Origin: Egibacteraceae bacterium
GTDB taxonomy: Bacteria > Actinomycetota > Nitriliruptoria > Euzebyales > Egibacteraceae
Direction of reading: 5' to 3'
NCBI GenBank assembly: GCA_035540635.1
Contig: DATLGH010000050.1
Location: 1-33,113, forward strand
DNA length: 33,113 bases
The position numbers and the translations under genes were made by a program. Positions within the stretch are counted from its first letter, which is position 1, and each line of letters opens with the position of its first letter. Below are positions 30,098 to 33,113 of this stretch, piece after piece. The notes beneath the pieces were generated by a model. That model was not told where the DNA came from, made no database searches, and saw only the letters and a list, made by a program, of their open reading frames with translations.

Positions 30098-30174
30098 GTG
30101 GAGTCCTCCACGCCGGAGCGGGCGGGGTGGGGAAGGCGCCGCGGCCACCACCGGACGGGCGATGCAGCGCGGCT

Positions 30175-30257
<83 letters not shown>

Positions 30258-30299
30258 GCGCCTCTCACCCGCCCGGTGCTGACCGCGCCGGACGGGGCG

Positions 30300-30353: not shown

Positions 30354-31400
30354 TCAGGCCGCGAGCGCGAGCGCGCCGAGGACGGCGCGTCCCGACCCCT
30401 CGCGGAGCACGTGCAGGGCCTCCTCGAACGTCGCGACACCGACGACCTGCAGGGGGCTGCCGGCCGGCAAGGCTGCACTGGCCTCCTCGACCTGAACGGC
30501 CGGGGCGAGGAAGACGTCGGCGCCCTCGGCGGCGGCCGCGACGACCTTGAGGCCGATCCCGCCGATGGGGGTGACGGTGCCGTCGGCGGTCACCCCGCCT
30601 GTGCCCGCGATCCGCCGGCCCGCCGCGAGGTCCTCGGGCGACGCCTTGTCGAACACCGTGAGGGCGATGAGCAGGCCGGCGCTCGGCCCGCCGATCGGCC
30701 CCGAGTCGACGTGGACGGGCACGGGCAGCTCTGCGCGGGGCAGTAGGTCCTCGGCCCGCACGCCGAGGCCGGGGCGGTCCATGCCGGGCACCGGGCCGGG
30801 AGCCACCTCGACCCGGCGCTCCTCGCCGTTGCGCACGACCACGATCTCGAGCGTCGCGTCGGCGGAGTGGCGGACCGCCGCGACGAGCTCGCCGGCGCTG
30901 CGCACGGGTGCGTCCCCGACCGCGGTCACGATGTCGCCGGTCTCCAGCGCGCCCTCGGCCGGCGCGCCCGGCAGCACGCCGGCGACGAGCGCCCCGAGCG
31001 GCTCGGCGAGCTCGACGGGGTAGCCGGCCGCCCGCAGCCCGAGCGCGGCGGCGATGTCGGCGGTTGACGCGAACACCTCCCGCTGGCGGCCGAAGAAGGT
31101 GGCGTCGTCCACGCCGCCCGTCAACCGCGTGGCAGGGACGAGCTCGGTGTCGGGGGTGAGCATCCCGTGGACGAGGAAGACGAGGCTGGCCCTCCGCAGG
31201 GCCACGACGGTGAGCAGGTAGTCGCCGTCGATCTCGCCGGGGCCCTCGGCCTGGTCACCGGCTGCCACGTCGACGTGGTCGGAGAGGCTGACGAGGCTGC
31301 CCGGCCGCTCGACGAACACGGGCAGGGGGACGACCACGGCCGCGGTCAGCAGGACCAGGATCGAGAGCGGCAGGAAGAGCGCCTGCGGGCGGACCCGCAT
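30354..31400 (-). CDS. Secreted PDZ/Lon-like serine protease (YlbL family)
   Basis: This 348-residue protein has one N-terminal membrane segment (about 8-28), a PDZ domain (about 130-205, GALVAGVLPGAPAEGALETGDIVTAVG) and a C-terminal Lon-type proteolytic domain. The catalytic dyad is readable as Ser240 in IGGPSAGL and Lys285 in GGIGLKVVAA. No ATPase domain is present, as in the YlbL family, which works outside the membrane. Its ATG overlaps the stop of the M50 protease by one base (TGATG), so the two membrane proteases are probably made together. The substrate is unknown; cleavage of membrane or envelope proteins is plausible. Confidence 0.93.
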   Translation of the reverse strand: MRVRPQALFLPLSILVLLTAAVVVPLPVFVERPGSLVSLSDHVDVAAGDQAEGPGEIDGDYLLTVVALRRASLVFLVHGMLTPDTELVPATRLTGGVDDATFFGRQREVFASTADIAAALGLRAAGYPVELAEPLGALVAGVLPGAPAEGALETGDIVTAVGDAPVRSAGELVAAVRHSADATLEIVVVRNGEERRVEVAPGPVPGMDRPGLGVRAEDLLPRAELPVPVHVDSGPIGGPSAGLLIALTVFDKASPEDLAAGRRIAGTGGVTADGTVTPIGGIGLKVVAAAAEGADVFLAPAVQVEEASAALPAGSPLQVVGVATFEEALHVLREGSGRAVLGALALAA

Positions 31401-32536
31401 CAGCGCATCAGGTCCGACACCAGGCTCGGGGTGAGCAGGCCGATCGGGCGGCCCGCCTCGACGACGAGCAGCATGTTGCCGGGTGCCTGGACGATGCGCT
31501 CCAGGGCGACGTCCATCCCCGCGTCCGCGTCGACTGTGACGGCGTCGGCCCGGTGGGCGACGTCGCCGAGCAGGGTCGTCGCCCAGTGCTTCCGGGGCAC
31601 GTCGTCGAGGCGCCCGAGCGTCACCCCACCGGTCACCGGCAGGCCCACCGGCCAGAGCAGGGACGGCCGCTGCTCGAGCTCGACGACGGCGTCGGACAAC
31701 CGCAGCCGCGGGTCGAGGGCCGGCGGCGCCGTGCCCATGACCTCGCGCACCGAGCGGTCGGCGAGCCGCTCACGCACCCGCGCACGCGTGTGCGACTGGG
31801 CGGCGCCCCGGTAGAGGAACGCCGCGATGAGGATCTCCCAGATGCCACCGAAGGTCCCGCCGGACCGCACGAAGACCGAGACGCCGTAGGCACCGAGCAG
31901 GAGCGCGAAGCCCTGGCCGATGCGCGCCGCCATGCGCGTGGACCGGTGCGGCCGGCCCGTGACCGCCCAGATGACCGACCGCAGGAGCCGGCCGCCGTCG
32001 AGCGGGTAGCCGGGCACGAGGTTGAAGACGGCGAGCAGCACGTTGATCCAGGCGAGGTAGCCGGTGATGGCGGCGAGGACCGGCTGCCCGAGGACGATGA
32101 CGTGGAGGAGCCCGAAGGTCGCGCCGAGCACGAGCGAGATGAACGGCCCTATGCCGACGATGACGAACTCGTCCTTGGCGCTGCGCGCCTCGCGCGTGGA
32201 CTCCGTCACGCCGCCGAGCAGGAAAAGCGTCACGCCCACCACGGGGATGTCGCGGTCGAGGCTCGTGATCGCATGGCCGAGCTCGTGGGCGAGCAGGCTC
32301 GCGAAGAACAGCAGCGCCGCCACCACCGCCGCCGCCACCGCGACCCCCGTGCCCTGGTCGGCCAGCAGGTCGGTGAAACGGGTGAAGAGCATCCAGACGA
32401 CGAGGCCGGCGATCACGAACCAGCTGACGTCCACGCGGATGGGGACCCCGCGCACGTGCGCGAGCGTCCAGGCGTTGCGAAACGTGCCGTCCCGGGAGGC
32501 CCGCGGGGGGCGCGAGGTCTCGTTCGTGTCCGTCAC
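31400..32536 (-). CDS. M50 site-2-type membrane metalloprotease with CBS pair (Rip3-like)
   Basis: This 378-residue intramembrane zinc protease has a HELGH motif (84-88) in the second membrane segment and the third ligand in LVPGYPLDGGRLLRS (about 180). It has about five or six membrane segments and a C-terminal CBS-domain region (about 255-378, SVREVMGTAPPALDPRLRLSDAV). This is the SpoIVFB/Rip3 group, which cleaves membrane-bound regulators, often anti-sigma factors or precursors. GTG at 32536 gives a short, plausible N-terminus (VTDTNETSRPPRASRDG) and has AGGGCG upstream; the longer frame runs through the tRNA-Ser gene and is not real. CBS domains suggest control by adenine nucleotides. The RskA-type protein at 22197-22934 is a possible but unproven target. 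Confidence 0.93.
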   Translation of the reverse strand: MTDTNETSRPPRASRDGTFRNAWTLAHVRGVPIRVDVSWFVIAGLVVWMLFTRFTDLLADQGTGVAVAAAVVAALLFFASLLAHELGHAITSLDRDIPVVGVTLFLLGGVTESTREARSAKDEFVIVGIGPFISLVLGATFGLLHVIVLGQPVLAAITGYLAWINVLLAVFNLVPGYPLDGGRLLRSVIWAVTGRPHRSTRMAARIGQGFALLLGAYGVSVFVRSGGTFGGIWEILIAAFLYRGAAQSHTRARVRERLADRSVREVMGTAPPALDPRLRLSDAVVELEQRPSLLWPVGLPVTGGVTLGRLDDVPRKHWATTLLGDVAHRADAVTVDADAGMDVALERIVQAPGNMLLVVEAGRPIGLLTPSLVSDLMR

Positions 32537-32602
32537 GTGATGCGCCCTGCCGCTCTGCTGCACGAGGTCCCGGTGGCCTCGGTGTCCGCGCCACCCCAGG
32601 GC

Positions 32603-32631: not shown

Positions 32632-32720
32632 GGAGCTGTCGCCTAGTCTGGCCTATGGCGCGGTCTTGGAATGGCCGTAGGGTGGCAACACCCTCGAGGG
32701 TTCGAATCCCTCCGGCTCCG
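32632..32720 (+). tRNA. tRNA-Ser(GGA)
   Basis: This is a complete class II tRNA with a long variable arm. The acceptor stem is GGAGCTG/CGGCTCC (one G-T pair). The D arm has GCC/GGC, the anticodon arm is CGGTC-TTGGAAT-GGCCG (anticodon GGA), the variable stem is GGGTG/CACCC and the T arm is GAGGG-TTCGAAT-CCCTC. The discriminator is G, and CCA is not encoded, unlike the tRNA-Pro gene in this window. It reads UCC/UCU. Confidence 0.96.
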
Positions 32721-32803
32721 CTTCGATCCCAAGTCCCGGGTTCGCGCACAACGGCGTGGGCCCGGCGGCGCGTCGAGCCCCGGAGCTCTGGGCCGGCGCT
32801 GCT

Positions 32804-32856
32804 CGTGGTGGGTGGGATTCGAACCCACGAACCCTTGCGGGTTACCCGCTTTCGAG
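32804..32856 (-). pseudogene. 3' half of a tRNA-Ser(CGA), truncated at the anticodon loop
   Basis: Read on the minus strand, the stretch has an anticodon loop CTCGAAA (anticodon CGA), the 3' anticodon strand GCGGG, a variable stem AACCC/GGGTT, a T arm GTGGG-TTCGAAT-CCCAC, and an acceptor 3' strand CCACCAC with discriminator G. The 5' half is missing. The bases before the loop (ACGCC) do not pair with GCGGG, and no GTGGTGG acceptor strand or D arm is found upstream. A tRNA cut exactly at the anticodon loop is what an att site of a tyrosine integrase element leaves behind. Confidence 0.65.
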
Positions 32857-32959
32857 GGCGTTGAGGGCCGTTTCACGTTGTGCCGCCAGATGCCGAAATG
32901 TGCCTCTCACCCGGGGTTTTACACTGGCCGCACACCGGCGTGCGCCTCCCCATGGCGGC

Positions 32960-32973
32960 TGTGACGCGTCACA
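32960..32973. repeat. Perfect 14-bp palindrome, possible operator
   Basis: TGTGACGCGTCACA equals its own reverse complement. It lies 22 bases past the end of the truncated toxin gene reading (minus strand) and 13 bases from a second palindrome of the same length. Confidence 0.6.
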
Positions 32974-32999
32974 TGTGATCCGGATGTGATCCGGATCAC
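32973..32999. repeat. Two 11-bp direct repeats, the second inside a perfect 14-bp palindrome
   Basis: ATGTGATCCGG occurs twice in tandem (32973-32983, 32984-32994), and GTGATCCGGATCAC (32986-32999) is a perfect palindrome overlapping the toxin stop codon. Together with the palindrome at 32960 this makes a cluster of TGTGA/TCACA-like half sites, typical of a regulator-binding array. Confidence 0.6.
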
Positions 33000-33113
33000 G
33001 GGCTTCCGGGATCGGGCCCGGGTGGCTGAGCGGCGTCGGATCGAGCCGCGTGGAGGATCCTCAGGATGTCGATCCGCCCGGGCTGCAGCCGGTAGAACAC
33101 GACGTAGGGGAAC
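32996..33113 (-). CDS. RelE/ParE-family toxin, C-terminal fragment cut by the window edge
   Basis: The minus strand from the right edge encodes FPYVVFYRLQPGRIDILRIL followed by HAARSDAAQ and a Pro/Gly tail ending GPDPGSP, then TGA. The pattern F-P-[YF]-x-[VI]-x-Y-x-V-x-x-x-x-[IV]-x-[IV]-L-x-V-x-H-x-x-R is the C-terminal strand pair and catalytic/target-binding end of ParE/RelE plasmid-stabilisation toxins. Only the last 39 residues are in the window; the start and the antitoxin gene, usually upstream, lie beyond 33113. Such toxins either poison gyrase or cut mRNA; which applies cannot be told. It stands next to a tRNA remnant, a usual place for accessory islands. Confidence 0.75.
   Translation of the reverse strand, partial: FPYVVFYRLQPGRIDILRILHAARSDAAQPPGPDPGSP

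Follow-up and report, generated by a model that had tools for sequence, protein, structure and literature searches.

Half of a tRNA-Ser(CGA) gene as the very probable attachment-site remnant of a genomic island in an Egibacteraceae bacterium

A half tRNA gene and its intact counterpart

The window, that is the whole stretch of DNA analyzed here, comprises all 33,113 bases of contig C50 from an Egibacteraceae genome of 110 contigs and 3.46 Mb. Its minus strand carries, 257 bp from the contig end, the 3' half of a tRNA-Ser(CGA) gene (32805-32857), which reads CCTCGAAAGCGGGTAACCCGCAAGGGTTCGTGGGTTCGAATCCCACCCACCAC and extends from the anticodon loop (CCTCGAAA; anticodon CGA at 32852-32854, minus strand) through the 3' side of the anticodon stem, the variable arm and the T arm to the 3' strand of the acceptor stem. 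The initial annotation had already recognized this half copy, albeit at coordinates one base off (32804-32856), and had pointed to an intact tRNA-Ser(GGA) and a toxin gene close by, both of which we found. On the 3' side of the half copy, a spacer of 83 bp (32722-32804) is followed by the intact tRNA-Ser(GGA) gene (32632-32721, plus strand), a chromosomal M50 metalloprotease gene with a CBS domain (31400-32599, minus strand; syntenic with tRNA-Ser(GGA) in the relatives G001 and G004), a PDZ protease gene, an SRP RNA and dnaX. Towards the contig end, Pfam identified the C-terminal end of a ParE-type toxin gene (32996-33113, minus strand), which is truncated by the end of the contig. The SRP RNA is of the bacterial small type (30163-30262, minus strand; Rfam RF00169, 67.8 bits) and lies at the start of dnaX; as it overlaps the GTG-started dnaX reading frame, the true start of dnaX is probably further in.

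ARAGORN and the Rfam tRNA model both called tRNA-Ser(GGA), and in the same searches left the half copy uncalled, even at E values up to 1, indicating that it is not an intact tRNA; a covariance-model search had been proposed at the outset as a way of disproving the half-gene reading. Folding gave a matching picture. The intact tRNA-Ser(CGA) gene of this genome forms a cloverleaf with z -4.46, whereas none forms (z +0.29) when the half copy is folded together with 37 upstream bases, 90 nt in all; the 53 nt of the half copy folded alone retain the 3' arms.

The proposed search for a second copy likewise returned one. Elsewhere in the genome the half recurs just once, within an intact tRNA-Ser(CGA) gene on contig C66 (C66:4099-4188, minus strand), the only intact gene of this kind found in the genome. 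A genome-wide DNA search matched C66:4104-4155 with an E value of 1e-17, the next match being 20 bases long with an E value of 0.001. Across 53 aligned columns, the half and the intact gene share 51 identities, with one substitution and one gap. Identity ends at the 5' side of the anticodon loop, bearing out the early observation that the 5' part has been replaced exactly from this loop on: the junction reads ...CGCCCG|CCTCGAAAGCGGG in the intact gene and ...TCAACGC|CCTCGAAAGCGGG in the half copy. The 3' half had also been described as complete, but its acceptor strand (CCACC, versus CCCCACC in the intact gene) is short of 2 nt. When a 2-nt gap in the acceptor C run is allowed, the match reaches through the discriminator base, as read from the alignment. 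In the Islander collection, some displaced tRNA fragments show a short deletion about 3 bp ahead of the discriminator (PMC4383910), and the loss seen here could equally be such a deletion or ordinary decay.

Flanks of the two copies and gene order in relatives

On C66, the 5' side of tRNA-Ser(CGA) is chromosomal, with tadA, an HSP20 gene and a transporter-like gene; the nearest named relative of this TadA is from an Egibacteraceae MAG (75% identity), and Nitriliruptoraceae MAGs reach 64-67%, which probably places the genome in this actinobacterial class. The 3' side (C66:1-4098), where the GC content drops to 0.63 from about 0.72, holds a helicase fragment, a HipA-like kinase gene and a gene for a HIRAN-domain protein. 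Given the flank contents of both copies, an island would lie between C66:4098 leftwards and window position 32858 rightwards, with its middle missing from the assembly. It would leave C50 by the right end and include the ParE gene; the orientation of the half copy agrees with the original suggestion that the element extends to the right of the window. By the same orientation, the spacer between the half copy and tRNA-Ser(GGA) would be the original downstream flank of tRNA-Ser(CGA). With the two contigs taken as adjacent, orientation and the gene order of the relative G028 place the fragment as the 3' end of the gene, in the same orientation and on the downstream side of the intact copy. The assembled island ends total about 4.4 kb, and the element would measure at least 4.3 kb.

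The two copies lie on separate contigs, C50 and C66, which are unjoined in the assembly. Joining them through their ends failed for C50, as its last 111 bases have no full copy elsewhere, and a search for the next contig with the G001 sequence beyond ParE matched C50 alone. Bases 1-140 of C66 recur at 95% identity near the start of another contig (C6:536-675), and C66 therefore probably breaks at a repeat. C6 also carries a broken integrase gene.

Had C66 and C50 once been adjacent, the neighbors of both should have stayed together in relatives that lack the island. Indeed, in two uninvaded relatives these neighbors are only 1.6-2.5 kb apart. G028, from the same order, has HSP20, tadA, tRNA-Ser(CGA), an interval of 2.5 kb, tRNA-Ser(GGA) and the PDZ protease; the interval encodes apparently ordinary chromosomal proteins and is free of the repeat pair described below. 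In G022, tRNA-Ser(CGA), tadA, tRNA-Ser(GGA) and the start of dnaX all fall within about 2 kb. In G004, from the same family, HSP20, tadA and an intact tRNA-Ser(CGA), whose flank is island-like, share one contig; a second contig holds dnaX, PDZ, M50 and tRNA-Ser(GGA) and breaks off within the 3' end of a further tRNA-Ser copy, a shorter 3' fragment than the other halves. This seems to be an arrangement like that of C66 and C50, with the assembly broken at the repeat.

The same-genus relative G001 has type II restriction-modification genes, tRNA-Ser(CGA), tRNA-Ser(GGA) and M50 in this order, with the first tRNA gene reversed relative to C66 and C50. We considered G001 as a simple empty site and rejected this, as its tRNA-Ser(CGA) points opposite to tRNA-Ser(GGA) and M50, and tadA lies on another contig beside ParE. 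Its loci (L175, 1-2104; L214, 5041-7247) fit an inversion of an occupied site between tadA and tRNA-Ser(GGA), with the restriction-modification genes at one end and the ParE gene at the other. The ParE end in the window is 96% identical in nucleotides, over 104 bp, to the intact ParE gene of G001, 1.1 kb from tadA, versus 82% for tadA in a 126-bp stretch and 74% for the M50 region; a mobile region exchanged later than the chromosomes diverged would explain this difference.

Half copies, repeat pairs and integrases at tRNA-Ser(CGA)

We searched 61 genomes of the class for full and partial tRNA-Ser(CGA) copies. Besides the window, 3'-half copies occur in G035, G037, G039, G040, G047 (two), G048, G050 (two) and G051. 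The relatives' halves start at the same base, (C)CTCGAAAGCGGGTAG / CTCGAAA, and differ in the sequence before it; the cut point is visible in all of them but the G051 copy, which begins at a contig end. In G039, a single-contig genome, the half and the intact gene are 11.5 kb apart in the expected orientation. The interval (L178, 6036-17653) appears to encode sugar transport proteins, glycosidases and a LacI-type regulator. No integrase was recognized among its listed reading frames, and it may therefore be a decayed island.

The closest counterparts were found in G047. At the right end of the proposed island, 151 bp of the window (32846-32996, minus strand; coordinates converted from the alignment) are 79% identical to G047 contig C190, where the counterpart also ends in a half tRNA-Ser(CGA). 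On G047 contig C94, genes for HipA, a HIRAN protein and an integrase (L181:7210-8499) come after a half copy. The HipA and HIRAN proteins of C66 are 67% and 72% identical to this pair and follow the tRNA in the same order and orientation, and the 3' flank of the C66 tRNA matches C94 at 80% over 103 nt, core included, and G004 at 84%.

Inside the right end, 116 bp from the island boundary, lies the direct repeat GGATCACATCCGGATCACAT, a 20-mer found once in the window (0.00 expected). It consists of GGATCACAT-CC-GGATCACAT with an 11-bp period (32973-32992, minus strand; about 116-135 bp from the core), and the pair is unique in both the window and the genome. Relative to the core, repeat pairs of this kind sit at -132/-121 in the window and on G047:C94, and at -133/-122 on G047:C190 and in G037. 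On the other side of the core, pairs occur at about +131/+142 in G004, G040, G047:C334 and G036; C66 has one clear GGATCACAT at the matching distance, where the others have two. The repeated word differs between islands, being GGATCACAT in the window, G004 and G047:C190, TGGTCACA in G047:C334, G036 and G037, and TGATCACAT in G040 and G045. In 388 kb of fetched loci, ten out of ten repeat pairs flank a tRNA-Ser(CGA) copy; since most of these loci had been chosen around such copies, the unbiased test is the count in the 61 whole genomes. There, the general repeat pattern occurred 24 times, compared to once for a reversed control. Nine of these occurrences are found beside tRNA-Ser(CGA); of the remaining ones, at least six have an integrase from the same broad family no more than about 1 kb away. 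Judged from sequence and spacing, direct repeats flanking the core at a fixed distance are likely arm-type binding sites of the integrase.

An integrase gene was sought on C50 and C66 and found on neither, the middle of the island being absent from the assembly. The whole assembly contained no close relative of the G047 integrase (best match 41%, on C29), and a search for this integrase type or its remnants in C66, the C50 end and C6 gave weak matches only, in the C6 integrase fragment. The gene may either lie in the unassembled middle or be missing from a defective island. In other genomes, integrases 57-67% identical to the C94 enzyme lie 0.2-0.9 kb from tRNA-Ser(CGA) (G040, G047:C334, G036, G035), and matches below 50% identity have, by their coordinates, no full or anticodon-half copy so close. 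All four relatives' integrases that we scanned (two from G047, one each from G040 and G036) contain PF00589 together with the arm-binding domain PF14657, the latter scoring above its cut-off. The short direct repeats that flank the core at a fixed distance are thus arranged like the arm sites of lambda-type tyrosine integrase systems, and these relatives' integrases have the arm-binding and catalytic domains of such systems.

As to cargo, the HipA/HIRAN pair of C66 matches the PADLOC candidate defense pair PDC-M03A/B. A weak UvrD_C_2 match marks the helicase fragment (C66:3010-3981), whose sequence resembles the end of a TraA-type relaxase. Neither of the two island ends showed an intact gene for a relaxase or for conjugation, and the reading frames scanned against Pfam, from about 4.4 kb of assembled island ends, included no phage genes.

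Proposed integration and possible use of the site across the class

Taken together, the repeated core, the direct-repeat word at matching distances from both copies, the common cut point, the shared 151-bp end, the HipA/HIRAN pair, the closely spaced neighbors in uninvaded relatives and the nearby integrases make it very probable that the half tRNA gene of the window is attR, and the C66 locus attL, of one tyrosine-integrase genomic island in tRNA-Ser(CGA). The initial proposal of an attachment-site remnant is thus upheld by the intact second copy, its orientation, the shared cut point and the island ends of relatives. We envisage that a circular island carried a copy of the tRNA-Ser(CGA) 3' half in its attP, and that a tyrosine integrase recombined this attP with the chromosomal gene by crossover in the anticodon loop. 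At attL, the island-borne 3' half would have restored an intact tRNA (C66:4099-4188), and the original 3' half would have been displaced to the far end, where it forms the attR core beside tRNA-Ser(GGA) (32805-32857), with the attP arm on its island side. The island would then comprise C66:1-4098, the unassembled middle and window positions 32858-33113, and the integrase would likely bind the GGATCACAT repeats about 130 bp from each core. We infer from these data that C66 and C50 carry the two ends of a single island; its integrase would presumably belong to the G047-type group, and the island may be, or may once have been, able to excise.

Several observations sit less comfortably with a single island: C50 and C66 lack an integrase and are unjoined, attL has a single GGATCACAT, and the rearranged region of G001 is unexplained by simple insertion. 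Some room, in our view not much, is left for a decayed scar, whose original island is gone or rearranged and in which the sequence to the right of the half copy is unrelated to C66:1-4098. The absence of an integrase from both contigs, the 2 nt missing from the acceptor strand and the large rearrangement at the same site in G001 would suit such decay, but GGATCACAT has been retained on both sides at equal distance from the core, and a single G047 island family matches both ends. A simple partial duplication or a pseudogene of tRNA-Ser(CGA), with no link to integration, would account for the mere existence of a partial second copy; it is strongly disfavored because the island ends are shared, and the halves of other genomes have the same cut point, several with repeat pairs and integrases beside them, so that we give it very little credence. 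An assembly artefact near the contig end is just as improbable: the contig does stop soon after the half copy, but the 151 bp next to it have an independent counterpart in another genome that also ends in a half tRNA-Ser(CGA), and the last 104 bp match G001 at 96%.

The one-island reading places the locus within the class described by Islander (PMC4383910), with an intact tRNA gene and a displaced 3' fragment of the same gene in the same orientation. The crossover lies at a known tRNA subsite, the anticodon loop, where the relatives' halves start alike; this anticodon-centered subsite 'A' is used by 2,083 of 3,919 Islander islands. The Islander signature has an integrase gene between the two copies and places both on one replicon, 2-200 kb apart; here, unlike there, the interior and the integrase are unassembled and the copies lie on two contigs. 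CGI48/GI21 of Shewanella putrefaciens, as described in PMC8978831, is likewise integrated in a tRNA gene and has a HipA-type kinase gene among its cargo, but it occupies tRNA-Trp in another phylum, and it carries a proven hipAB toxin-antitoxin pair instead of a HipA-like and HIRAN pair matching PDC-M03. There, HipAB is reported to stabilize its tRNA-integrated island, and by analogy the C66 pair might do the same. Integrative mobilizable and conjugative elements, as outlined in PMC5704250, share integration by a tyrosine integrase, and the possible relaxase end on C66 recalls them; they differ in that the ends of this island yielded neither an intact relaxase gene nor a conjugation gene.

Tandem arrays are known among Islander islands, and the G047 contigs can be read as one, with the contig order inferred. 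The order would be tadA, tRNA-Ser(CGA), an island A with TGGTCACA arms (C41, C334), the half copy on C94, an island B (HipA, HIRAN, integrase) and a half copy with GGATCACAT arms (C190). The C94 half copy (L181, 4827-5110) has TGGTCACA repeats to its left and GGATCACAT repeats to its right, as expected at a junction of stacked islands; it is probably such a junction, or an attP. More broadly, the data point to tRNA-Ser(CGA) as a recurrent landing site in this lineage for islands with defense and toxin-antitoxin genes. A class-wide landing site, at which related integrases use different arm words (GGATCACAT, TGGTCACA, TGATCACAT) around the same core, is a more speculative extension that we hold only tentatively and consider rather doubtful. 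If true, such divergence of the arms would allow tandem stacking of islands at a single site without joint excision. While the mechanism as such is textbook, repeated use of one site with exchangeable arm words would be the partly novel element. The locus defines one end of a mobile island in an actinobacterial lineage that has been little studied, and beside the landing site lie candidate defense (PDC-M03 HipA/HIRAN), restriction-modification and toxin-antitoxin genes. Related integrases with defined core and arm sites are also potential integration tools for these bacteria.

Two further observations concern variants of these elements. On G035 contig C9 (L218, 8020-8065), a 5' half of tRNA-Ser(CGA) adjoins an integrase, and a full but divergent tRNA-Ser(CGA) (77%) follows at a distance of 1.9 kb; this may be an island that brings its own complete tRNA. 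Finally, repeat pairs with an 11-bp period (L229-L251) also adjoin integrases unlinked to tRNA-Ser(CGA), and could thus serve to map other islands in the class.
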